Origin: an uncultured Rhodospirillales bacterium
GTDB taxonomy: Bacteria; Pseudomonadota; Alphaproteobacteria; Azospirillales; Azospirillaceae
DNA: 33,014 nucleotides
Assembly: GCA_903920145.1 (NCBI GenBank)
Contig: CAIXKV010000004.1
Location: 1-33,014, forward strand
Reading direction: 5' to 3'
Shown here: piece by piece, positions 1 to 31,977 of the stretch
Position numbering within the stretch: position 1 is the first letter of the stretch
How the letters are laid out: every line of letters starts with the position of its first letter
The notes under the pieces: generated by a model
What the model was told of the DNA's origin: nothing
Seen by the model: only the letters and a program-made list of their open reading frames with translations
Database searches by the model: none
Position numbers and translations under genes: made by a program

Positions 1-140
1 AGCTATAACGATGACACACTGCCGGTATCGGGCCGCGACGACGGCCCCGCGCGCCCATGCGCGCGAAGCCAAGGGCGCGGATGCGCCCGCCCGGCGTCTG
101 AGGGCAGACTTGATGAGTCACCATCAAGGCTCGATGGTTA
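1..140 (+). repeat. Palindromic repeat copy A, left end cut by window
   Basis: This is a member of the interspersed multi-hairpin family described under copy H. The core hairpins GGGCCGCG..., GGGCGCGGATGCGCCC and CTTGATG...CATCAAGG are present. The right end is GATGGTTA (one extra T compared with the usual GGTA), followed by TAA at 141-143. The left TACC end is not seen, so the element either begins before the window or is eroded. It lies just beyond the 3' end of the GT41 gene. Confidence 0.8.
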
Positions 141-195: not shown

Positions 196-2592
196 TCAGC
201 TCGTGCCCCGTCCACCATCCAGCATCCCAAGGCATGCTGCCACGAAGTCCTGGACAAAGCGATCCTGATCACAGAGGGGCGAGGCCAGCAATCGCTGTCG
301 CAGTCCAGCCCGCCACGCGGCCAAACGCCCCCAGTCCGTCGCTAACGTCAACGCCCGCTCAACATACTGATCCTGGTCTTGGGCGATGCTGTCGGTCAAG
401 CCTACGGTGGTCAGGAACCCGAACGAGTGTCGGCTGGCGAAACTCTCTCCTGGATAAGTCACCACCGGAACCCCCATCCAAAGGCACTCCAGAGTGGTGG
501 TGCTGCCTGAGAATGGGAACGAATCCAACGCCAGATCGACACGCCCGATGGCCGCCAAATGGTCGGTATGCCCGGTTCGCCCCAGGAAACGCAGCCGATC
601 GGCGCTCACGCCCCGATGTTCGAATGCCGTTTCCAGGCGCCGTCGGCAGTCAGCATCCTCGAAGGCCCGTGCCTTCAGCACCAGTCGGGCTTGGGGCAAA
701 CCCCGCAAAATCCGGCTCCAGACATCGACCACCCCGTCATTGAGCTTGGCCAAAATATTGAACGAGCCGAAGGTGATATGCCCATTCGTGAAGGCTGGAA
801 GCGGGGTTACGGGTAAAGTCGCCATCGGCGGCTGGTAGCAAATGAAACTGTTGGGCAGACGCACGATCCGTTCGCGGTAATAGGGCTCGTGGCCCTCTGG
901 CACTTGATGTCGATCCGCCAGCAAAACATCCATGGTCTCGAGGCCCGTGGTGGCCATGTAACCGGCCCAACTCACCTGAATCGGCGCGGGTCGACGCGCG
1001 AAGGTCAAGAGCCGATTGCCTTCCATGTGGCCGGTCAGGTCGAACAGGATCTCGATCCGATCGGCGGCAATGGTGGCCGCCAACTCATCGTCAGAGCATC
1101 CATGCACCGATCGCCACAGCGTCGCCGCCGCCCGGAACCGAGCGGTGAGCCGGTCTTGGTCGTCGGGTTTTTCGGGGTGGTTGGCATAACACACCAGCTC
1201 GTACCCGGCCTGTCGCAGTCCCTCCAGCGTTCGGATGGTAAAGAAGCCGACCGGATGATCACGAAAGTCAGGAGACACGAAGCCCAGTCGGGGCAAAGCG
1301 GTTCCGCTCCCGACGGTTCCGCTCCCGACGGTCCCGCTCAAGGACGGTGCCGCCGGCCCTGTCCCGACAAAACGGGCGGCACAGGTCTCATTCCAGGCCC
1401 GATGAGCCGCCAGGATCTCCGGCAACCCCACCCCCGGCAGAAACATCTGAAGATAAACCCAATTGCCGTAGGCGCCGGGATGATCCGGTTGCAACGCCAA
1501 GGCCCGCCGGAAACAGGCTTCGGCATCCGCCAAACGCCCCTGTTCAACCAGCACATTGCCCAATCCATAATGATCATCGGCGTGGTCTGGCCGCTGCCCG
1601 AGCAATCGCCGATAACAGGCTTCGGCCTCGCTCAGGGCCCCTTGAGACAGCCAGGCCATCCCCAGATTGCCCAAGACGGCTTCATGGTAGGGGGGATGGT
1701 TTAACACCCTCGAGCCTTGATGGTGACTCGTCAAGGCTGCCTTCAGACGCCGGGCGGGCGCATCCGCGCCCTTGGCTTCGTGTCCACGAGGACGCAGGGC
1801 CGCCGTCGTGGCCCGATACCGGCGGTGTGTCGGTGTCAGGGCTTGCCGGTATAACACCTGCTGATAGCAGGCGATGGCCTCTACCACTCGCCCTTGGGCG
1901 AACAACGCGAGCCCCAAATTCCCGGTAGCCTCACCGTAATCGGGAGACTCGGCCAAGGCGTGCCGATATTCGGCCTCAGCCTCGACCAAACGGCCTTGAT
2001 TCAACAACACATTGCCAAGATTGCTGCGCGTCTGGACATCGGTCGGATCCAGAGCTAAGGCGCGTCGATAGTGAGTTTCGGCTTCGGCCAACCGCCCTTG
2101 ATGGAACAAGGTCGTGCCAAGATCGCCATAAATCCCAGCTTGTTCCGAGTTCTGGTCCAGCACCCACCGAAACGCCGCCTCCGCCTTGCTGGCCTCTCCC
2201 AGCCCTAACCAGGCGATGCCCAGATTTTTCCGGGCGTTCAGATGGTCCGGGGCTAAGTCCAAAGCCTGTTGATAGGCGGTCACGGCTTCGTTGATCCGAC
2301 CCAAAGCGAGCCGGGCGTTGCCCAAACTCATCCAGGCTTCGGCCCAGTCTGGCCGAACCTCCACCGCCCGCCCCAACAGACCTTCGGCCTCGTCAAAACG
2401 CCCCAGCCGGTGGGTGAGGACTCCCAGATAGTGCAAAGCCTCCCCCTGATCGGGGCGCTCGGCCAGAACGCCCCGATACAGCATTTCGGCCACGGCAAAA
2501 CGCTCGGCCCGGAGATGGCCCAACGCCCACGTCAACCGCTCGGCCACGGCCACGCCCCGAGTCGCCATCGACAGTAAGGAGTTTCGAACCAT
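196..2592 (-). CDS. TPR-repeat protein with GT41 (O-GlcNAc transferase-like, SPINDLY-type) catalytic domain, carrying an in-frame repeat insertion
   Basis: The N-terminal half is a run of 34-residue TPRs (motifs such as YRRALALDPTD and NLGNVLLNQGRL). The C-terminal half resembles the GT41 catalytic region: SPDFRDHPVGFF near its start, then FGSFNILAKLND, and DSFPFSGSTTTLECLWMGVP with the UDP-sugar-binding region. The family transfers a sugar from a nucleotide donor to protein Ser/Thr; the bacterial substrates are mostly unknown. I chose the ATG at 2592 (MVRNSLLS, 798 aa). A longer reading frame to 2751 runs into repeat copy C and its first about 50 residues are repeat-derived. MATRG at 2568 is another possible start. 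Residues about 248-297 are encoded by repeat copy B; without them the neighbouring TPRs align with normal spacing. The frame is open throughout, so the gene may still be functional. The family call is firm; the substrate is unknown. Confidence 0.9.
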   Translation of the reverse strand: MVRNSLLSMATRGVAVAERLTWALGHLRAERFAVAEMLYRGVLAERPDQGEALHYLGVLTHRLGRFDEAEGLLGRAVEVRPDWAEAWMSLGNARLALGRINEAVTAYQQALDLAPDHLNARKNLGIAWLGLGEASKAEAAFRWVLDQNSEQAGIYGDLGTTLFHQGRLAEAETHYRRALALDPTDVQTRSNLGNVLLNQGRLVEAEAEYRHALAESPDYGEATGNLGLALFAQGRVVEAIACYQQVLYRQALTPTHRRYRATTAALRPRGHEAKGADAPARRLKAALTSHHQGSRVLNHPPYHEAVLGNLGMAWLSQGALSEAEACYRRLLGQRPDHADDHYGLGNVLVEQGRLADAEACFRRALALQPDHPGAYGNWVYLQMFLPGVGLPEILAAHRAWNETCAARFVGTGPAAPSLSGTVGSGTVGSGTALPRLGFVSPDFRDHPVGFFTIRTLEGLRQAGYELVCYANHPEKPDDQDRLTARFRAAATLWRSVHGCSDDELAATIAADRIEILFDLTGHMEGNRLLTFARRPAPIQVSWAGYMATTGLETMDVLLADRHQVPEGHEPYYRERIVRLPNSFICYQPPMATLPVTPLPAFTNGHITFGSFNILAKLNDGVVDVWSRILRGLPQARLVLKARAFEDADCRRRLETAFEHRGVSADRLRFLGRTGHTDHLAAIGRVDLALDSFPFSGSTTTLECLWMGVPVVTYPGESFASRHSFGFLTTVGLTDSIAQDQDQYVERALTLATDWGRLAAWRAGLRQRLLASPLCDQDRFVQDFVAACLGMLDGGRGTS
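1705..1851 (-). repeat. Palindromic repeat copy B inserted in frame within the GT41/TPR gene
   Basis: The element reads right end to left end on the + strand, from CACCCTCGAGCC (1705, CACC in place of TACC) to GCCGGTA (ending 1851). It is flanked by TAA at 1702-1704 and 1852-1854. Direct repeats TAACACC at 1702-1708 and 1852-1858 are exactly 150 bp apart, which is 50 codons. Compared with other copies, the reading frame lacks the usual stop near the end (GTATAA is altered). Confidence 0.93.
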
Positions 2593-2634
2593 ATCCGCTC
2601 GCGATAAAGGCCATTTTCGAGAGTCGATGGTATA

Positions 2635-2728
2635 TACCAACGGCCCTAGACAATGATCCGTGCCGTTGGTATCGGCGGCGACCGCCGCCGCGCGCCCCAT
2701 GGCGCGAAGCCAAGGGCGCGGATGCGCC
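2635..2728 (+). repeat. Palindromic repeat copy C (variant-end subfamily, truncated on the right)
   Basis: The copy starts TACCAACGGC and forms the end hairpin ACCAACGGC/GCCGTTGGT, as in copy D. It then carries the core GGGCGCGGATGCGCC and stops at about 2728, lacking the right third. It lies between the divergent GT41 gene and the Sco gene, so it probably sits in or beside their promoters and creates artificial N-terminal extensions for both reading frames. Confidence 0.85.
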
Positions 2729-2769
2729 TTCCCCCTCACCAGTATGACCAAAAAAACGTGGATACCGTC

Positions 2770-3339
2770 ATGGATAAACGAGTCGTGCCCCTCGCTGGCG
2801 TGGTGGTTCTGGTGGTTCTGCTGTTCGCCAGCCTGGCTTGGGGACCAAGCGGACGGGGCGTCGGCATTAACAGCCGTTTTTCACTGGTGGATGATTCCGG
2901 TCATGCCGTCTCAGACACGGATTTTCGTGGCCGGTTCTTACTGGTCTTTTTCGGTTACACGCACTGTCCCGATGTCTGTCCGACCGAACTCCAAACCATG
3001 GCCGACGCCGTCCAGCGATTGGGGGCCGCCGGTGCCTCTGTTCAACCCATTTTCATCACCGTCGATCCCGAACGCGACACCAGCGCCGTTCTCCACGATT
3101 ATGTGGCCTTGTTCCCACCGCGCCTCGTTGGATTGACCGGCAGCCCGGAACAGATCGCCGCCGCCGCACGATCCTATCGCGTGTTCTACCGCCGTGCCCC
3201 ATCGGCCGATGGTGGGTATTCCATGGATCACTCGGGGCTGATCTATGTGATTGGCCCTGATGGTCGCTTTTGGACCGCTTTCGCTCCCAGCACTTCTGTG
3301 GATAGCATCGTGGCCACCCTTCGCCGCCGCTTGCAATGA
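2770..3339 (+). CDS. SCO1/SenC/PrrC-family copper chaperone or thiol-disulfide protein
   Basis: The 189-residue protein has an N-terminal membrane anchor (VVPLAGVVVLVVLLFASLAW), so its thioredoxin-like domain should face the periplasm. The Sco signature FFGYTHCPDVCPTEL gives the CxxxC copper-binding pair, and the expected distal histidine is in SMDHSGLIYVIG. The family delivers copper to the CuA site of cytochrome c oxidase or acts as a redox sensor. I chose the ATG at 2770 because the reading frame before it runs through repeat copy C and because the hydrophobic anchor follows it directly. No cytochrome oxidase genes are adjacent in the window, so the partner is not shown. Confidence 0.92.
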   Translation: MDKRVVPLAGVVVLVVLLFASLAWGPSGRGVGINSRFSLVDDSGHAVSDTDFRGRFLLVFFGYTHCPDVCPTELQTMADAVQRLGAAGASVQPIFITVDPERDTSAVLHDYVALFPPRLVGLTGSPEQIAAAARSYRVFYRRAPSADGGYSMDHSGLIYVIGPDGRFWTAFAPSTSVDSIVATLRRRLQ

Positions 3340-3403
3340 CCGCTCGATCCGTGGGGCGCGCTGGTTCAGCGTCGCCCTGATCGGATCGCTTCACCCTGCC
3401 GAA

Positions 3404-3715
3404 TCAAGCCGACAGCCGTACATAATGCCGAACCGGCAGCTTGCGCGGGCTGGTGGTGTCGGTTCGTTGAATGAACCACCAATCCCCCAACAGCGCCCCG
3501 GACGCTCCGCCAGCCAGAGTCCAGGCTGCCCCGCCCAACAAAGCATAAAGCCCAACCGCTCCGCCCAACATGCCCGCGCCAACAATCATGGCTTGGTCTG
3601 ATGTCAACCCAAAATGCGTCATCGCCTCATGTCCAGGCGAGACCGGCTGTGTTGGTTCGGCAATTCCTGCCAATGGCAGCGCCGCCACCAGGGCGACCAA
3701 GAAGAGTTTCCGCAT
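3404..3715 (-). CDS. Small hypothetical membrane protein with signal peptide
   Basis: The protein is about 103 residues. It has a signal-peptide-like start ([21 protein letters not shown]), a short polar stretch, and a Gly/Ala-rich hydrophobic segment ([28 protein letters not shown], which I split here only for reading) followed by [11 protein letters not shown] chose the ATG at 3715; a GTG directly upstream (3718) is equally possible, and GGAG lies about 8 bases before. It is convergent with the Sco gene. I do not recognise a named family; secretion followed by one or two glycine-zipper-like membrane segments is all that can be supported. Confidence 0.6.
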
Positions 3716-3955
3716 CACCTTACTCCGCGCCGTCCTTCCTTAACGCCAAGCCGCCCGAGCCCTCTGCCAGGGCCGCCATTTGCCTTTCAATCCCGGTATC
3801 ATTTCAATGGCCCAACCAAGAGTCAAATGCCTTGGAAAAAGAGCCTCCGTATTGATGCAGGCAGCCAAGCGGATTACCTTATCCCGCACTGTCCAAAGAT
3901 GCGGTATTTTCCTAGAAACGACGCCGCGACATTTCGACGCCAAGGACTCTATCTT

Positions 3956-4657
3956 ATGATCGATGAACACCAAGGGGCCTTGGTCCTGTTTTCCGGGGGG
4001 CAGGATTCTGCGAGCTGTCTGGCTTGGGCACTCGACCGTTTCGAGCGCGTCGAAACCGTTGGATTCGACTATGGCCAGCGCCATGTCGTCGAAATGGCCT
4101 GCCGGGACCGGGTGCGCGACGGTATTGCGGGGCTGAATCCGCTCTGGCGGCGCCGCTTGGGTCGTGACCATCGGGTGGACTTGGCGTCGTTGGGCGCCGT
4201 TGCCGAGTCTGCCCTGACCCGCGACACCGCCATTCACGTCCCCGACCATGGTTTGCCGACCACTTTTGTTCCCGGTCGTAATCTGGTCTTTCTGACCTTC
4301 GCCGCCATCGTCGCCCAGGCCTGCAACCTCCGCCGTCTGGTGGGGGGCATGTGTGAAACTGATTTCTCGGGTTATCCCGACTGCCGCGACGACACCATCA
4401 AGGCGATGCAGGTTGCGCTGAATCTGGGGATGGAGCGGCGTTTTGTCATCGATACGCCGCTGATGTGGCTGGATAAGGCCAGTTCATGGAGATTGGTCGA
4501 ACAGTTGGGCGGTGAGGCTTTGGTCGAGTGCATTCGCGTCGAGACCCACAGTTGCTATCAGGGCAACCGAGATATCCTGTATGCCTGGGGCTATGGCTGC
4601 GCGGCGTGCCCCGCCTGCCGGTTGCGGGCTGCGGGTTGGGCCGCGTATCGGGGGTAG
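3956..4657 (+). CDS. queC: 7-cyano-7-deazaguanine synthase
   Basis: QueC converts 7-carboxy-7-deazaguanine to preQ0 with ammonia and ATP, in the queuosine tRNA-modification pathway. The 233-residue product starts [18 protein letters not shown], giving the ATP-pyrophosphatase P-loop SGGQDS. The C-terminal zinc site is visible as SCYQGNRD...[11 protein letters not shown], with four cysteines. FVPGRNLVF and [15 protein letters not shown] are also typical of the family. I chose the ATG at 3956 because AAGGA lies 9 bases upstream and the family starts immediately before the P-loop; an open frame extending to 3614 has no family similarity. No other que genes are in the window. Confidence 0.95.
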
Positions 4658-4697: not shown

Positions 4698-4765
4698 TAC
4701 CCTCGGGCCTTGATGGTGACTCATCAAGGCTGCCCTCAGACGCGTCAACGTCCAAGGCCATTGGA
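4698..4765. repeat. 68-bp hybrid mini-copy E of the palindromic repeat
   Basis: The left part (TACCCTCGGGCCTTGATGG...CATCAAGGCTGCCCTCAGACG) is the standard right end of the family in reverse. The right part (GTCAACGTCCAAGGCCATTGGA) matches the end of copy D. The central hairpins are missing. TTA flanks both sides (4695-4697 and 4766-4768). It lies between the convergent queC and recN genes. Confidence 0.82.
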
Positions 4766-7447: not shown

Positions 7448-7575
7448 GGCAAACCGTACAGACAGGGGGGCCAAAGCAAGACGGCGTTTTCACACCGCGT
7501 CCCTTATAGCACGTCATCGCCAGCTCGAGACAAGCCAGCAATTCACTTTTTGATCCATGTCGAAAGAACCGGAAC

Positions 7576-7729
7576 TTATGCTGACGAGTCGTGACAATGT
7601 GTCATCGTCGATCCTTGGGCTGCGACCGCAGCCTCGTGCCCCCGAGCGCGAAGCCAAAGGCATCGATGCGCCCGTTCGGCGTCCAAGGGCCAGCCTCAAG
7701 GGGGCAAGATCAAGGCCTGAGGACGGGTA
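7576..7729 (+). repeat. Degenerate palindromic repeat copy F
   Basis: The order of blocks matches the family: a TCATCGTCG block, CTTGGGCTGCG, GAGCGCGAAGCCAAAGGC, GATGCGCCCG, CGGCGTC, and a decayed GCCTCAAG...CAAGGC arm ending GGGTA. Many substitutions mark it as an old copy. The boundaries are approximate and no clear duplication is visible. Confidence 0.6.
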
Positions 7730-9639: not shown

Positions 9640-10149
9640 TTATGTCCGTTTCGGGTCGGACGGCCCCAACACTCCGGACGTTTCGCACTTGGCCAGCGCC
9701 AGCGCTTCGCGATAGGCTTCATCAAACACGCTCTTCAATCGCCGATCCGATGCGGTCCCGTTGGCGAGTTGATGCTTCAGCACGGCGATATACGCTTTTC
9801 CAACCACATAAGTATGAACCTCTTCGGTTGGTGGCGCAGTGTCTGAGGGGCCGCACTGGGCCAGGATGGTGGCCTGCCGATAGGCTTCATCGAAAACATC
9901 CTTCAGCCGTCGGTTGGATGTCTCCCCTTTGGCCAATTGATGCTTCAGTACGGCGATGTAGGCTTTCCCTAAAAGGTAGGTGTCGACCTGTTCCGCCAGA
10001 TCGCTTCCTCTCTCTTTCACCGTTGGGTCGCCCGTCGCTGGGTTGCCGGTAGCCACCATCACCCCATCCCCTTTCGTCGCGCCCACCTCCTCCATAGCCT
10101 CACACCCAAGGCCGGAAGACCGGACACCGAAGATGGCCGACGGCACCAT
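9640..10149 (-). CDS. Hypothetical protein with two near-identical 45-residue repeats
   Basis: I do not recognise a family. The 169-residue product has an unstructured-looking N-terminus and then two copies of a helical unit, residues about 55-99 and 111-155. Each contains GKAYIAVLKHQLA..., RRLK and VFDEAYR and ends in Cys. I count 33 of 45 identical positions, so the duplication is recent or strongly conserved. No signal peptide or membrane segment is obvious. The ATG at 10149 is supported by AGGAAGGAGG at 10161-10170, 11 bases upstream. It sits between hflC (82 bp upstream) and degP (about 210 bp downstream), where many relatives carry a small DUF2065 gene; this is not that family. A role in the same quality-control pathway is only a guess from position. 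Confidence 0.8.
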   Translation of the reverse strand: MVPSAIFGVRSSGLGCEAMEEVGATKGDGVMVATGNPATGDPTVKERGSDLAEQVDTYLLGKAYIAVLKHQLAKGETSNRRLKDVFDEAYRQATILAQCGPSDTAPPTEEVHTYVVGKAYIAVLKHQLANGTASDRRLKSVFDEAYREALALAKCETSGVLGPSDPKRT

Positions 10150-12496: not shown

Positions 12497-13621
12497 ATGG
12501 CGCAGGTTACCGAAGATCAGGTCCTGACCGCTTTGCGAACCGTCACCGATTCGGAACGCGGCGCGGACATTGTTTCCCTCGGCATGATCGCGGGGCTCAC
12601 TATACAGGATGGCGCCGTCACCGTCGCCATCGAGGTTGACCCGCGCCGCGCCGCCCAGGCTGAACCCATACGCCATGCCGCCGAGAGCGCGGTCAAGCGT
12701 CTCGATGGCATCGAAGCTGTCACGGCGGTTCTGACAGCCCACCGCCCACCGCCCAACCGAAACGCTCCACAGGTTCACGACCATGGAGGCCACGGGCACG
12801 GGGGGCCGCCCCCGCGTGTCCGCCCGTCGCTATCCGGGATTCATGCGGTGGTCGCTGTGGCTTCGGGCAAGGGCGGCGTTGGCAAATCCACCACCGCTAT
12901 CAATCTGGCTTTGGCCTTGGTCGGCCAAGGGCTGCGGGTTGGTCTGTTGGATGCCGATGTTTACGGCCCTTCGCTCCCGCGCTTGCTGGGCATCACCGAA
13001 AAGCCCCAAGCCGATGGTGAGCGTTTGGCGCCGATCATGCGTTATGGTTTGGCCACCATGTCGATCGGCTTTTTGGTGGCCGAGGATACACCGATGATCT
13101 GGCGCGGCCCGATGGTCCAAAGCGCGCTCCAACAAATGCTGTTCGATGTCGCCTGGGGGCCATTGGATGTGCTGGTGGTTGACATGCCGCCTGGCACCGG
13201 CGACGCCCAATTGACCATGGCCCAACAAGTCCCGTTGGCCGGGGCGGTGATTGTCTCGACACCCCAGGATCTGGCCTTGCTCGATGCCCGGAAGGGATTG
13301 AACATGTTCCGTCGGGTGGATGTCCCGGTCCTCGGCATCATTGAAAATATGAGCTATTTCACTTGCCCCCACTGCGGCGGACGAAGCGACATTTTCAATC
13401 ATGGCGGCGCCCGGCGTGAGGCCGAACGGCTTGGCGTTGATTTTCTTGGAGAAATTCCCCTGGATATGGCGATTCGAGAGACATCGGACCAGGGCTGCCC
13501 CATTGTCGTCAGTGCTCCCGAAAGCGAGCACGCCCGCGCCTTCCGCACCATCGCGGCTGCGATTTGGCAGCGAGTCGCCACCCAGACCGCCAACCCGCCT
13601 CCCCGCATTGTGGTGGATTGA
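12497..13621 (+). CDS. mrp: Mrp/ApbC (NBP35-type) iron-sulfur cluster carrier ATPase
   Basis: The family binds and hands over Fe-S clusters to apo-proteins using a deviant Walker P-loop. The 374-residue product has an N-terminal MIP18/DUF59 domain (about residues 1-85), a His/Gly-rich linker (VHDHGGHGHGGPPP), then VASGKGGVGKSTTAINLA (P-loop), LLDADVYGPSLPRLLG, VVDMPPGTGDAQLT, and the cluster-bridging CPHC motif in YFTCPHCGG. The ATG at 12497 follows GGAG. The next gene begins 4 bp after its stop, so the two are probably one transcript. Confidence 0.95.
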   Translation: MAQVTEDQVLTALRTVTDSERGADIVSLGMIAGLTIQDGAVTVAIEVDPRRAAQAEPIRHAAESAVKRLDGIEAVTAVLTAHRPPPNRNAPQVHDHGGHGHGGPPPRVRPSLSGIHAVVAVASGKGGVGKSTTAINLALALVGQGLRVGLLDADVYGPSLPRLLGITEKPQADGERLAPIMRYGLATMSIGFLVAEDTPMIWRGPMVQSALQQMLFDVAWGPLDVLVVDMPPGTGDAQLTMAQQVPLAGAVIVSTPQDLALLDARKGLNMFRRVDVPVLGIIENMSYFTCPHCGGRSDIFNHGGARREAERLGVDFLGEIPLDMAIRETSDQGCPIVVSAPESEHARAFRTIAAAIWQRVATQTANPPPRIVVD

Positions 13622-13625
13622 TCCC

Positions 13626-13994
13626 ATGATCGAGTCGCTGATCTCGGAGATCTCCTGGCCGGTTTTTTGGGGATTGACGGTGGGACTGTTCGGCGGTTGC
13701 GCCTTTATGACCGGCCAGGCGGCGGCCTCGGCTTGGCGTCCCGTCGGCCTCATGTTGCTTTACGGTCCACTCTTGGGAGCCGGCGACCGTTTTTTGACCT
13801 ATGCCCTGTTTCAGGGGCCGCTTTGGTCGCTGCCCGGCTTTCTCGGCCACACCGTCTTGCTGACGGCCATCGCCCTTACGGGCTACCGCTTGACCCTGGT
13901 TCGCCGCATGGTCACGCAATATCCCTGGCTTTATCAGCGCGACGGCCTGTGGCGCTGGCAGGAGCGCGCCGCGCCAGACGAGGGAAGCCCGTAA
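13626..13994 (+). CDS. Small integral membrane protein (resembles the DUF6867 family)
   Basis: The 122-residue product has three probable membrane segments: WPVFWGLTVGLFGGCAFMTG, VGLMLLYGPLLGAGDRFLTY and FLGHTVLLTAIALTGYRL. It ends with MVTQYPWLYQRDG, matching from memory a small alphaproteobacterial membrane family (DUF6867) usually found beside branched-chain amino-acid ABC transporter genes. Those genes are absent here. The function is unknown. The ATG at 13626 lies 4 bp after mrp. The TAA stop is the first copy of the 3-bp duplication flanking repeat D, so the repeat begins immediately after the stop. Confidence 0.8.
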   Translation: MIESLISEISWPVFWGLTVGLFGGCAFMTGQAAASAWRPVGLMLLYGPLLGAGDRFLTYALFQGPLWSLPGFLGHTVLLTAIALTGYRLTLVRRMVTQYPWLYQRDGLWRWQERAAPDEGSP

Positions 13995-14139
13995 TACCAT
14001 GGCCCTGGACGTTGACACGTCCGCAGCGCCCTCAGACGCCGGGCATGCGCATCCGCGCCCTTGGCTGCGCGCCATGGGGCGCGCGGCGGTGGTCGCCGCC
14101 GATACCAACGGCACGGATCATTGTCTAGGGCCGTTGATA
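13995..14139 (-). repeat. Palindromic repeat copy D (variant-end subfamily), complete
   Basis: A 145-bp element running from TACCATGGCC to GTTGATA, flanked by TAA at 13992-13994 and 14140-14142. It shares the core (CTCAGACGCCGGGC and GCGCATCCGCGCCC) with the main family but has different end hairpins, GGAC/GTCC at one end and ACCAACGGC/GCCGTTG at the other. It is the complete partner of truncated copy C. Confidence 0.9.
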
Positions 14140-14318
14140 TAACTGCTCAATTGCACGCAAAAGGAGCGTCCGCACATGCCAGGGGGGCTCCGACCACGCC
14201 GGGCCGTCCAGACGCTCGCGATGGTGCGTCCACTGCCCCAGGGCCCTCAGGAGGCCGATACCGGCGCCCAATTGACGGATCCCCCGACATTTTAAGCAGG
14301 CGCCTATATCCTTCGGAG

Positions 14319-16210: not shown

Positions 16211-16356
16211 CATAACTCTCGTGCCTTGATGTTGGCTCATCAAGGCTGCCCTCAGAGGCCAAGCGGGCCACACTGGGGCTTCGCATCCACAAGGACATGA
16301 GGCTGCTGTCACGGCCCAAGGGTCGGTGCTGTGTCATGGTTAGGGGATGCCGCCGG
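16211..16356 (-). repeat. Degenerate palindromic repeat copy G
   Basis: It is recognisable by GTGCCTTGATG...CTCATCAAGGCTGCCCTCAGA at the left and GGTCGGTGCTGTGTCATGG at the right, with an altered centre (CATCCACAAGGACATG). The ends are too eroded to show a duplication. Confidence 0.65.
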
Positions 16357-16462: not shown

Positions 16463-16627
16463 TACCGGCGAGCCCTGATACTGACACATCGCCGGTCCTC
16501 GGGCCGCGACGGCGGCCCCGCGCGCCCATGCGCGCGAAGCCCCAGTGTGTGGACTCTAGGGGGCGCGGATGCGCCCGCCCGGCGTCTGAGGGCAGCCTTG
16601 ATGAGTCACCATCAAGGCCCGATGGTA
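16463..16627 (+). repeat. Palindromic repeat copy H, complete (type copy)
   Basis: A 165-bp element from TACCGGCGAGCCC to CCCGATGGTA, flanked by TGA at 16460-16462 and 16628-16630. It can form five hairpins in order: ACCGGCGA/TCGCCGGT, GGGCCGC/GCGGCCC, CGCGC/GCGCG, GGGCGC/GCGCCC and GCCTTGATG/CATCAAGGC. The two ends align as an imperfect inverted repeat of about 28 bp (about 21 matches). It shares with copy I a roughly 23-bp extra block containing GTGTGTGGACTCTAGGGG. Confidence 0.92.
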
Positions 16628-17333: not shown

Positions 17334-17498
17334 TACCGGCGAGCCCTGATACTGACACATCGCCGGTCCTCGGGCCGCGATGGCGGCCCCACGTCCTCGT
17401 GGACGCGAAGCCCCCGTGTGTGGACTCTAGGGGGCGCGGATGCGCCCGCCCGGCGTCTGAGGGCAGCCTTGATGAGTCAACATCAAGGCCCGATGGTA
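17334..17498 (+). repeat. Palindromic repeat copy I, complete
   Basis: A 165-bp copy very close to H, including the extra GTGTGTGGACTCTAGGGG block. It is flanked by TGA (17331-17333) and TAA (17499-17501). The third hairpin differs from H (CCACGTCCTCGTGG in place of the CGCGC/GCGCG stem) yet still pairs. Confidence 0.92.
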
Positions 17499-18704: not shown

Positions 18705-18795
18705 AGGGAGGCTGTGCCTCTCTGCGAGTACAAAAAACAGAGCCTCGCGCTTTTTGCGGGCTCCGCCACCCCCGCAAAGGGCCGGTCGGCCCTTT
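18705..18795. repeat. Cluster of three stem-loops upstream of mnmA (second repeat type)
   Basis: The hairpins are GAGGC/GCCTC, TTTGCGGG/CCCGCAAA and AAAGGGCCG/CGGCCCTTT, packed in about 90 bp. The minus strand of the right part reads AAGGGTTCAAAGGG, a 14-mer also present at 32877-32890. It resembles the intergenic hairpin repeats common in this group, though only one full copy lies in the window. A run of T after GCGAGGCTCTG on the minus strand could give termination before mnmA. Confidence 0.55.
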
Positions 18796-18819
18796 GAACC
18801 CTTAACGGGGATGCCACCG

Positions 18820-22331: not shown

Positions 22332-22473
22332 AAAAAATTTCCGACCGTGGCTTTTTTTGTCTGTACGGTAAGGAAGCAGTAATGTTATTGCTAAAGTGAA
22401 ATCTGAAGATAATCGCGCAACTGATTTGTTTGGTGAGTGTATCGCTCAAGTTGCCGAGGGGGAGACGAGACCG

Positions 22474-23700
22474 ATGATGCGACGTGTTCGGCCAACAGCC
22501 CGTTGCCAACGACATCTCATTGTTACGCTATCGATCTTGTGCTCGCCCTGGATGCTGGAGGGCTGTGCTGAAGTCCCCGCACCCGCGCCGCAAATCACGG
22601 CGGCTCCAGCTCCGGCTCCCGCCGGAACTATAGACAGTTATATCCACGAAGCCTCGCAAAAATTCAATGTTCCTGAACGTTGGATCCGCGCCGTGATGCA
22701 GCAGGAAAGCGGGGGGCGGCCTCTTTTCCATGGCCAGCCGATTGTCAGCCCGAAGGGCGCCATGGGATTGATGCAGGTGATGCCGTCCACCTGGGCCGAT
22801 CTGAGCGCGGCTTACGGGCTTGGCAAGGATCCCTTTGATCTGCATGACAATATCATGGCGGGGACCGCCTATATCCGCGAGATGTATGACCAATACGGCA
22901 ACCCCGGTTTTCTGGCCGCTTACAACGCCGGGCCCGGACGGTACGAAGTCACGCTCAAGACTCACCGCCCGCTGCCGGACGAAACCAAGCATTACATGGC
23001 GGTGATTTCGCCCCAGATTGCGGGCATCGATCCGGTGGGAGCGTCTCCGACCCCGCGCATGACGGTGGTGGCATCGCTGCGAGTCGGCGATGGACCGGCT
23101 CATTCGGCTGTTGATGGCGATCCCGATGCCAAACCAGCGGCGATGGTCCTTGCGGCTCTATCGACTCCGACTCCGGTTCCTCCGAGCGTACCCAAGGGGC
23201 CAGATATTAAGGAGTCGAACGGAGACGCCGAGTCGTCGGCTTCTGCGCTGCCCGTAGCCAAGCCGGCACCCGTTCCTGTTCCTGCCCTGGCTCCCGTGGC
23301 AACGGCGGTTTCGTTGTCGGGCTCGACTCCGACAGGCCCGTCCGCCAAACCAGCCCCGCTGCTACAGCTTGCCAGCGCCGAAGTCGGAGACGGTCATCCG
23401 GCCTCCGTCGCCAATCGTCCGTCGGCTCCGGCCCCGACCTCCCATGGCGATCACCACGGCGACGCTCATAGTGATGCCCATGGCGACAACGCCCATGCTG
23501 CCCATAGTGAGGGAACCCATAGTGGCGACGCTCATAGCGATGCCCATGGTGGTAATGCCCATGCCGGCAGCACGGCTCATAGCGGCGACCGGGACGATAC
23601 CGTCATCAGCGACCATCACCTACCCAATGGATTGGTTTATGCCGACCACCGGGCCAATCTGCCTCCGGGATGGTATGTTCCGGTGGCGTATACGCACTGA
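22474..23700 (+). CDS. Lipoprotein lytic transglycosylase (SLT family 1) with a His-rich C-terminal repeat tail
   Basis: SLT enzymes cleave peptidoglycan to 1,6-anhydro products. The 408-residue product has a signal peptide with lipobox LEGC, a Pro/Ala linker, and an SLT domain at about residues 60-190. The catalytic Glu is in QQESGGRPL; GAMGLMQVMPSTW and AAYNAGPGRY are also conserved. After the domain lies about 120 residues of Pro/Ala/Ser linker, then a tail rich in His, Asp, Gly and Ala (GDAHSDAHGDNAHAAHS), tandemly duplicated with a 66-nt unit, and finally LPPGWYVPVAYTH. The ATG at 22474 follows GGGGGAGACG; a frame to 22396 puts 26 residues before the signal peptide and is unlikely. Confidence 0.92.
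   Translation: MMRRVRPTARCQRHLIVTLSILCSPWMLEGCAEVPAPAPQITAAPAPAPAGTIDSYIHEASQKFNVPERWIRAVMQQESGGRPLFHGQPIVSPKGAMGLMQVMPSTWADLSAAYGLGKDPFDLHDNIMAGTAYIREMYDQYGNPGFLAAYNAGPGRYEVTLKTHRPLPDETKHYMAVISPQIAGIDPVGASPTPRMTVVASLRVGDGPAHSAVDGDPDAKPAAMVLAALSTPTPVPPSVPKGPDIKESNGDAESSASALPVAKPAPVPVPALAPVATAVSLSGSTPTGPSAKPAPLLQLASAEVGDGHPASVANRPSAPAPTSHGDHHGDAHSDAHGDNAHAAHSEGTHSGDAHSDAHGGNAHAGSTAHSGDRDDTVISDHHLPNGLVYADHRANLPPGWYVPVAYTH
23458..23589 (+). repeat. 66-nt tandem repeat encoding a His-rich tail
   Basis: GGCGACGCTCATAG occurs at 23458 and again at 23524, and similarity extends through GATGCCCATGG and GCCCATGC. The frame is kept (22 codons per unit). A shorter CATAG/CCATGG motif recurs throughout. 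Confidence 0.85.
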
Positions 23701-23817
23701 TTGGGTGAGGTGGCGCTGGACAATCGGTTGACGGTCATGGACGCCGCCGGTCAGGGGCGCTAGTCTGGTCGGCCCGATTGCGGGTGAACCAACAGCAACG
23801 ACCGGATGATTGTCCTT

Positions 23818-24546
23818 ATGACCACGACCCAACGCCCTTCGGGCCGGGCCTTCGATGCCTTGCGTACCGTCAGCCTTGAGCCCGGCTTTGCCAAATACGC
23901 CGAAGGCTCGTGTCTGGTCCGCTTTGGCGATACCCACGTCCTTTGCACCGCCAGCGTCGACGAGCGGGTGCCTCCCTTCATGCGGAACAGCGGGTTAGGT
24001 TGGGTGACGGCAGAATACGGGATGCTGCCGCGATCGACTGCGACTCGCACGGATCGGGAGGCTGCGCGGGGGCGTCAGTCCGGGCGAACCCAGGAAATTC
24101 AACGCCTGATTGGTCGTGCTCTCCGGGCCATAACGGATCGCAAGGCGCTGGGGGAAATCCAGATTAAGATCGACTGCGATGTGCTCCAAGCCGATGGTGG
24201 AACGCGAACCGCTGCAATTACCGGCAGCTATGTTGCCCTGCATTTAGCCTTCCAACATCTGATCCGGGTTAAAGCGATCAAGACTCTGCCGCTGATCGAC
24301 TCGGTGGCGGCGGTGTCGTGTGGCCTGTATCAGGGAACTCCGGTGCTGGATCTGGATTATGCCGAGGACAGCAACGCCCAGGCTGACGCCAACTTCGTCC
24401 TGACCGGCAGCGGTGGCATTGTCGAGATTCAAGGCACAGCCGAAGAGCGCCCCTTTAGCGAGCCCCAATTCCTGGAGCTGCTGCGGTTGGCCCGTCAGGG
24501 AATTGCAGAGCTGACCGCGTTACAAAAGGCGGCGGTGGGCGGCTGA
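23818..24546 (+). CDS. rph: Ribonuclease PH
   Basis: RNase PH trims the 3' ends of tRNA precursors by phosphorolysis. The product (242 aa from this start) shows [37 protein letters not shown], the [14 protein letters not shown] arginine stretch, [18 protein letters not shown] and VDLD-type [21 protein letters not shown]. Length is normal. I prefer ATG 23818; ATG 23806 is 12 bases upstream and neither has a clear ribosome-binding site. The TGA stop (24544-24546) is the base triplet on which repeat K begins. Confidence 0.95.
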
Positions 24547-24722
24547 TACCATCGGGCCTTGATGGTGACTCATCAAGGCTGCCCTCAGACGCCGGGCGGG
24601 CGCATCCACGCCCTTGGCTTCGCGCGCATGGGCGCGCGGGGCCGCCGTCGCGGCCCGAGGGCCGGCGCTGTGTCAGTGTTAGGGCTTGCCCAGACGCCGG
24701 GCGGGCGCGTCCGCGCCCTCTC
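24547..24722 (-). repeat. Palindromic repeat copy K with a partial internal duplication
   Basis: It starts TACCATCGGGCC directly after the rph stop codon and runs to GGGCTTGCC, where the usual GGTA end should be. Instead a second copy of the core (CAGACGCCGGGCGGGCGC, then GCGCCC) follows at about 24691-24720. It fills the whole gap between the convergent rph and kdpE genes and may work as a bidirectional 3' structure. Confidence 0.9.
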
Positions 24723-30803: not shown

Positions 30804-31019
30804 TCGGGAGACTCCTCGTGGCGGTCTATCGGCTGGCTTATCAAGGCGTTGCAACGATCCAGCAGGCATAATCGGTCTGCGACGAGCTGTCGCATTGCCT
30901 TCTTAATAATTCCTTTATGCCATTTCGTGGCAAAAAAATCGCATCGGAAGCAATTCTTTGCCTAGACATAACATCCCTGACATGTTAGGCAGGCTATGTT
31001 CGGAATGGGGGGATGGAAA

Positions 31020-31835
31020 ATGCGTCGTTTGGCCATTCATCTTTGTGTTTTTGTTTTTAGTTTATCATTCTTAGGAATAATCTCATCCACTCCTGCTCAA
31101 GCGCAAATGTGCGTGCATTATGCCCGCATGTTGACCAATTTCCAAATCCAGGGAGACGCCTGGACATGGTGGCAAGGTGCGGTTGGTCATTATCAGCGTG
31201 GTGTTCGGCCAGCGGTGGGCTCGGTTCTGGTGTTCCGGCGGACGGATCGTCTTGAATCGGGGCATGTTTCCGTGGTCAGCCGGGTGATCGATAACCGGAC
31301 CATTTTGGTTGATCATAGTTGGTTGGAAGGCAGCGGGTTGCACCGGGGCATGAAGGTGGTCGACACTTCGTCCGGCAATAACTGGTCGGCGGTTCGGGTT
31401 TGGTATGAACCGTCGGATAATTTGGGATTGCGGACGTATCCGACCTTTGGCTTCATTTATCCCCATGATGCTGGTCCTGGCGATCGCTCCGCTCCGCTTA
31501 CGGTGGCAGCGTTGGGGGATCGTGATGACGATGGCGACAATGACCGGGATGGTGCGCATCAGCCGCGCAGCCGGATTGTTCTAACTCATGGCGGTTCCGA
31601 ACATCTGACGGTGGCTTTCCATCCCGGACACAAGCCGTTGATGATGTTGGCTCGTGCCGCAGCGGCGCCGTTGGCGGCGACTGGGGCGCACCGTCCGTCC
31701 ACCGCCCCGGTCGAGTCCAGTGCGGCACCGGGAGCGATTCCCTCTCACAAGCCGGGCGCCCACGCGCATGGGGGGGCCCAGGTTGCTGATGCCAGCCATG
31801 TTCGCGGCCATGACGGCTTGGAGATTGGTGATTGA
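31020..31835 (+). CDS. Secreted CHAP-domain (NlpC/P60-like) putative peptidoglycan amidase
   Basis: The 271-residue product has a signal peptide (MRRLAIHLCVFVFSLSFLG, then cleavage near AQAQM). A CHAP domain follows at about residues 30-150, with the nucleophile Cys in QMCVHYARMLT, the His in ESGHVSVVSRV and the polar residue in LVDHSWLEG. CHAP enzymes cut peptidoglycan peptide or amide bonds. The C-terminal about 100 residues are Ala/Pro/His-rich and probably disordered. I chose ATG 31020 because GGGGGG precedes it by about 8 bases and the signal peptide begins there; ATG 30996 is possible. Its TGA stop is the first copy of the duplication flanking repeat L. Confidence 0.88.
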   Translation: MRRLAIHLCVFVFSLSFLGIISSTPAQAQMCVHYARMLTNFQIQGDAWTWWQGAVGHYQRGVRPAVGSVLVFRRTDRLESGHVSVVSRVIDNRTILVDHSWLEGSGLHRGMKVVDTSSGNNWSAVRVWYEPSDNLGLRTYPTFGFIYPHDAGPGDRSAPLTVAALGDRDDDGDNDRDGAHQPRSRIVLTHGGSEHLTVAFHPGHKPLMMLARAAAAPLAATGAHRPSTAPVESSAAPGAIPSHKPGAHAHGGAQVADASHVRGHDGLEIGD

Positions 31836-31977
31836 TACCGGCGAGCTTACGGATTGACGCATCGTCGGTCCTCGGGCTGCGGCTCCGCGCGCCCATGCGC
31901 GCGAAGCCAAGGGCGCGGATGCGCCCGCCCGGCGTCTGAGGGCAGCCTTGATGAGTCAACATCAAGGCTCGAGGGTA
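31836..31977 (+). repeat. Palindromic repeat copy L, complete, bridging two genes
   Basis: A 142-bp copy from TACCGGCGAG to GAGGGTA, flanked by TGA at 31833-31835 and 31978-31980. The first TGA is the stop of the CHAP gene, and the last A of the element plus TG of the second TGA makes the ATG of the DUF455 gene. The hairpins GGGCGC/GCGCCC and GCCTTGATG/CATCAAGGC are intact. Confidence 0.93.

Follow-up and report, generated by a model that had tools for sequence, protein, structure and literature searches.

The question raised by positions 13992-14142 of the 33,014-bp stretch analysed here (the window, which is contig C4 of a 4.26-Mb genome in 269 contigs) is whether this short segment is a mobile element and, if so, of what kind and moved by what. 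The original prediction had read it as a MITE with TNA target duplications, possibly mobilised by a transposase of the IS1031 group of the IS5 family. The segment comprises exactly one copy of a repeated element (copy F) and both of its target triplets, in the layout TAA-TACCATGGCC...GGGCCGTTGATA-TAA. The element itself is 145 bp long (13995-14139, plus strand) and belongs to a subfamily with the right end TACCAACGGCACGG..GGGCCGTTGATA. Its left and right triplets, both TAA, lie at 13992-13994 and 14140-14142 on the plus strand, and its core, with limits set by comparison with other cores, at 14028-14100 (plus). As inverted repeats the ends of copy F are weak, with only 10 of 34 positions matching in an ungapped comparison.

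The window holds 11 copies or remnants in total. Copy A (1-140, minus strand) is cut by the contig start and has its left end at 140; copy C (2635-2733, minus) lacks the left end and has the right end of the F subfamily. Copy B (1705-1851, plus) is 147 bp long with TAA on both sides, and copy D (4698-4765, plus) is a short form of 68 bp, flanked by TTA/TTA, with the right end TTGGA in place of GGTA. Copies E (7571-7720, minus) and G (16219-16336, plus) are decayed. Copies H (16463-16627, minus; TGA/TGA) and I (17334-17498, minus; TGA/TAA) are both 165 bp long, and copy K (31836-31977, minus; TGA/TGA) is 142 bp long. Copy J (24547-24690, plus) has lost its right end and is followed by a second core fragment at 24691-24721. 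Of the six window copies in which both limits can be read, five (B, D, F, H and K) have identical TNA flanks and one (I) has unequal ones. This count leaves out A, C, E, G and J, each of which lacks a readable end; the TNA-flanked copies listed earlier, under other letters, agree with it. The ends of copy H match as inverted repeats at 23 of 34 positions, which none of 10,000 shuffles equalled.

Flanks were counted in a sample of 100 stretches plus the window (1,465,993 bases, about one third of the genome); some stretches were chosen for holding copies, and the others were contigs C1-C44, up to 20 kb of each, minus C4, C14, C20 and C29. The scan for terminal inverted repeat (TIR) pairs used the pattern TA(C/T)C...G(A/G)TA with at least 12 of 20 end bases matching. 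At spacings of 26-260 bp it found 385 pairs; since shuffled sequence gave 322, chance accounts for most of them. TNA stood on both sides of 84 of the real pairs and of none of the 322 shuffled ones. The two triplets were identical in 55 of these 84 (permutation mean 22.8; none of 10,000 permutations reached 55), and the duplication expected over a large set of copies was thus found. Without three that are nested duplicates, 52 of the 55 remain, and the 29 pairs with unequal triplets count against duplication. A scan for palindromic hairpins gave 29 places, compared with one in shuffled sequence; only two of the 29 had equal flanks, and many of them are parts of larger copies. A nested insertion is seen at L070 (16680-16841), where the right hairpin of one copy is interrupted at TGA by a second element. 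At L046, at L060 and twice at L068 the right flank TCAGACGCC... runs on as the core of another copy and the left flank is unrelated; both L068 cases have unequal triplets, TGA on the left and TCA on the right. These flanks could have arisen by insertion at the TCA of the core and a subsequent deletion or recombination event between repeated stretches.

The core with related ends is also present on plasmids of Azospirillum and Niveispirillum, and empty sites, another check proposed with the original prediction, were read for copies of these relatives at two loci. At the mmsB locus A. argentinense Az39 is occupied (CCCTTTCA-element-TCACGCC), while MTCC4035, MTCC4039 and MTCC4038 are empty and read CCCTTTCACGCC, with an exact single TCA (three of the four records read); the fourth, TSH58 (L282), is without the element and has a small extra stretch just past the site. 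The mmsB query matched 23 records, eight of which hold most of it, and seven of the eight are without the element by coverage. Read on the other strand, the TCA of this site is the TGA stop codon of mmsB. The second locus carries the element in A. brasilense MTCC4038 and one TCA alone in TSH58. Both of the copies found at these loci have decayed at their outermost bases, with left ends TTCA and CACA as against TACC. The element family is polymorphic between Azospirillum strains. An empty site for a window copy was sought in the stretch beside mnmA in G001-G004, which gave no match, and a genome scan with the mnmA-like protein returned 80 loci with the core in none. The flank statistics, the nested insertion and the single-triplet empty sites in Azospirillum together sustain the original reading of a MITE with TNA target duplication.

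Lengths of 147-148 and 162-165 bp are frequent; shorter forms measure 68-103 bp, and the left and right hairpins occur alone at 42 and 35 bp. Forms with equal TNA flanks span 35-213 bp; they are short, carry no transposase gene and are present in many copies, which places them among the MITEs. The 12-mer TACCATCGGGCC occurs 118 times in the genome and not at all in the reversed control. Core places numbered 11 in the window, 86 in 723 kb, 86 in the 412 kb of C1-C44 and 75 in 298 kb, which scale to 1420, 507, 889 and 1072 per genome, respectively; the 412-kb set is the least selected of these, though biased to short contigs. Other filters gave 207 or 253 core places in the same sample. The genome accordingly holds several hundred to about 900 copies. 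Copies lay at 44 of 73 contig starts over all sets (some of them chosen for hits) versus 159 of 2880 inner stretches, and in the C1-C44 set, taken regardless of copies, at 19 of 40 starts versus 112 of 1750 inner stretches. The element seems to break the assembly.

The family very probably consists of non-autonomous DNA transposons of the MITE type with a 3-bp TNA doubling, whose transposase is supplied from elsewhere. Each element has two hairpin-forming ends beginning TA(C/T)C, which are diverged inverted repeats of each other, and between them a core of about 75 bp with the capacity to form three hairpins and a short helix around them. A transposase, presumably of the DDE type, would recognise the ends, cut the TNA triplet with a 3-bp stagger and insert the element, whereby the triplet would be doubled. 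The core may aid mobility rather than the host.

The genome was searched for a source of this transposase. PF01609 matched five times, never between TACC ends; two of the matches, both open, look ISAs1-like. PF13340 and PF13359 gave no matches in the genome. One PF13586 fragment with an internal stop, one partial PF13358 match and one PF07592 match below the cut-off and with a stop were found, none between TACC ends. Among 30 PF13340 loci in relatives, three (L174, L180 and L183) had equal TNA flanks and inverted ends beginning GAG, and the others were without a convincing end pair. Long TIR pairs (261-4000 bp) had equal TNA in 19 of 2753 cases, compared with 0 of 3892 in shuffled sequence. 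In 15 of the 19 a core copy is found no more than 130 bp from one end or both, and these pairs therefore join separate short copies. The remaining four, together with L254 and L221, were rejected as full elements: by eye their ORFs look like ordinary genes (methyltransferase, cyclase, leuA-like, RNase J-like, mannose-1-phosphate guanylyltransferase-like, alaS and OmpA-like), none transposase-like. The pattern TNA-TAYCRATCYGC occurred at 14 places in G015 and G021, four of them copies already known; the other ten, in nine regions, yielded L316 as an additional short copy, and partner ends in these regions matched at 10 of 18 at most. A full insertion sequence with matching ends, as proposed earlier, was not found in the 1.466 Mb sampled, about one third of the genome. 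Multi-copy elements can be absent from a 269-contig draft, so the partner is not shown to be absent.

Among the explanations that differ from the general one above, one has the MITE moved specifically by an IS1031-group IS5 transposase that has disappeared from this genome or escaped the searches in it. Such a source is conceivable because a TNA target with a 3-bp repeat is what the available part of PMC12016507 gives for the IS1031 group, and IS1031-type elements with TNA flanks do exist in the relatives (the three loci named above). Their ends, however, start GAG and those of the MITE TACC; the searches with PF13340, PF13359 and PF13586 left only the PF13586 fragment in this genome, and the sampled third held no long element with TACC ends. 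This lack of an intact IS5-type transposase and the GAG ends leave the specific attribution made by the original prediction unsupported, and it is regarded as rather unlikely.

Several copies touch genes. Copy B adds 147 + 3 bases, about 50 codons, in frame to the ORF at 196-2751 (minus strand, 851 codons), which carries a GT41 domain and, to either side of the insert, TPR repeats. This ORF is O-GlcNAc transferase-like, and the insertion is of the sort described for Rickettsia palindromic elements. The triplet of copy B also ends an ORF at 889-1704, which has no Pfam match, overlaps the TPR gene on the other strand and is probably not a gene. Target triplets are the stop codons of three Pfam-bearing ORFs in the window: the left TAA of copy F ends the DUF6867 ORF (13401-13994), the left TGA of copy J the RNase PH gene (23806-24546), and the TGA at 31833-31835 beside copy K the CHAP-domain ORF (30996-31835). 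Copies F and J point in the direction of the upstream gene and K against it. In the sample, 6 of 253 core places are 60 codons or more within a called gene, and those apart from copy B may represent extended false ORFs. Called stop codons were hit by 7 of 46 insertions not inside called genes, versus 6.0% of comparable TNA sites (p 0.019; home-made gene caller, with six interior insertions left out); with a plain ORF length of 100 codons the figures were 13 of 55 versus 6.2%. Targeting of stop codons was considered and set aside, as the excess is modest and can be explained by tolerance of insertions between genes. The element thus duplicates stop codons and is able to lengthen a reading frame by about 50 codons. 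On contig C13 (L223, 4236) a decayed copy starts directly after the TGA stop of an ORF at 3336-4235. Other repeats occur in the window as well. A short one at 18752-18814, upstream of the mnmA-like gene, accounts for most of the matches obtained in G003 and G001 (same genus), at about 84-95% identity, and looks like a second high-copy family. A direct repeat of 116 nt at 9710-9993 is present in two copies (72% identical, spacing 168), and one of 41 nt at 23458-23564 (66 bp apart, 88% identical) lies inside the ORF at 22396-23700 (SLT domain).

The core lies between the ends in the order GCCCTCAGACGCCGGGC-hairpin 2-TTGGCTT-hairpin 3-hairpin 4. Its three hairpins and enclosing helix are common to Azospirillum, Niveispirillum and this genome, under different ends. 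Sixteen cores were compared: three out of the 141 distinct cores of this genome, single ones from G001, G020 and G021, four labelled Niveispirillum, of which two were traced to G015 by equal coordinates, and six representing five species of Azospirillum. The longer Azospirillum-type forms (L159, L162, L163, L201), poor matches (L164, L165, L272, L279) and near-duplicates (L167, L169, L275, L276) were left out. Standard pairs filled 350 of 364 cells (shuffle mean 269, maximum 292 in 2000 shuffles), in a register set by hand and leaning towards the fold, and 15 of 23 core pairs had changed on both sides (relatedness not controlled). In P1, a three-pair helix enclosing hairpin 2, C-G is flipped to G-C in five of six Azospirillum rows. 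RNAalifold on a MAFFT alignment of the cores did not find hairpin 3. Compared with 200 shuffles, single-strand folding gave z -4.3 for copy H (0 of 200 as good), z -2.3 for copy F (5 of 200) and z -9.2 for an A. ramasamyi copy (0 of 200). Among the forms left out, L162 and L163 (probably Azospirillum) are core copies without TACC ends in which hairpin 3 is swapped for a longer stretch, that is, a stand-alone form.

Stems that covary and loops that are conserved across genera, together with the copies directly after a stop codon, would also be expected if the core were an RNA of use to the host, for instance one that terminates transcription or stabilises mRNA, and its mobility incidental. The 177 copies examined in this genome hold 78 G-T and 100 A-C mispairs; G-T is not above A-C, so the resident copies carry no RNA-strand bias, and no strand-specific RNA selection is seen. 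The mixed orientation of F, J and K to the upstream gene (window only) speaks against such a role as well. In Rfam the element had no match above the gathering score, the window giving only a tRNA, and a permissive search of five loci returned a tRNA and one chance-level match. A host RNA is therefore an improbable account of the core. In our reading, selection acts on the copies while they move; alternatively, concerted change of palindrome arms by template switching could produce the covariation.

Two Y1_Tnp (PF01797) matches are present in the genome, of which the one read looks IS200-like by eye; neither lies between TACC ends or has an element copy in the stretch examined around it. The family had no matches in four of the six genomes searched (G001, G003, G015 and G022), and G001, G015 and G022 carry the element or core. 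That these are REP/BIME-like repeats moved as single strands by a RAYT (Y1) transposase, with the TNA flanks as target preference only, is very improbable: the hairpin-rich make-up, the high copy number, the stand-alone 35- and 42-bp hairpins and some Azospirillum and Niveispirillum cores without TACC ends would suit it, but REP/RAYT systems are not known to make a target duplication, whereas here left and right triplets match far beyond preference, empty sites hold one triplet, and Y1_Tnp is distributed as just described.

Recognition of MITEs usually rests on the ends of the parent element, the middle being free to vary. In this MITE family the middle is shared, with compensatory changes in the stems, and the ends differ, which makes structure-aided mobility of a non-autonomous element testable. 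The unusual part is the conserved folded core beneath changing ends. As a tentative proposal, the core might be a mobility module, a single-stranded DNA or RNA structure required in cis by the transposition machinery and kept for the age of the bacterial family while the transposase-binding ends were exchanged for different transposases. If so, the MITE family would be defined by its conserved folded core and not by its ends.

The element is a real MITE family of Azospirillaceae with TNA targets; its link to IS5 is unproven. The accessible text of the literature searched, including PMC10969869, PMC3899980, PMC12016507 and PMC2229807, held nothing naming this repeat in Azospirillaceae. The IS1031 group of IS5, as far as described in the available part of PMC12016507, shares the TNA target and the 3-bp doubling; it differs in encoding a transposase and in ends that start GAG (in the relatives) or GAA (ISLrh), and the PF13340, PF13359, PF13586 and PF01609 searches found no intact member in this genome. 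Rickettsia palindromic elements (RPE), in the excerpts of PMC2229807 at hand, are likewise hairpin-rich and inserted in frame in protein genes; unlike them, the present element has a clear TNA doubling, and copy B is its sole clear insertion within a gene. Caulobacter intergenic repeats (CIR) are described in the same excerpts of PMC2229807 as alphaproteobacterial, about 110 bp long, with stem-loops and TA at the termini, and are similar in these respects; they carry conserved GANTC sites and are set apart here by description rather than sequence. Correia/NEMIS, ERIC and RUP are bacterial MITE-type repeats according to the available parts of PMC2229807 and PMC10969869, where up to 711 copies of ERIC are reported in Photorhabdus. 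The element resembles them in being short, with inverted-repeat ends, TA at the termini, target duplication and high copy number. Unlike them, as far as the same parts describe them, it is GC-rich, has a TNA target with a 3-bp doubling, and keeps a conserved, covarying middle across genera while its ends change.
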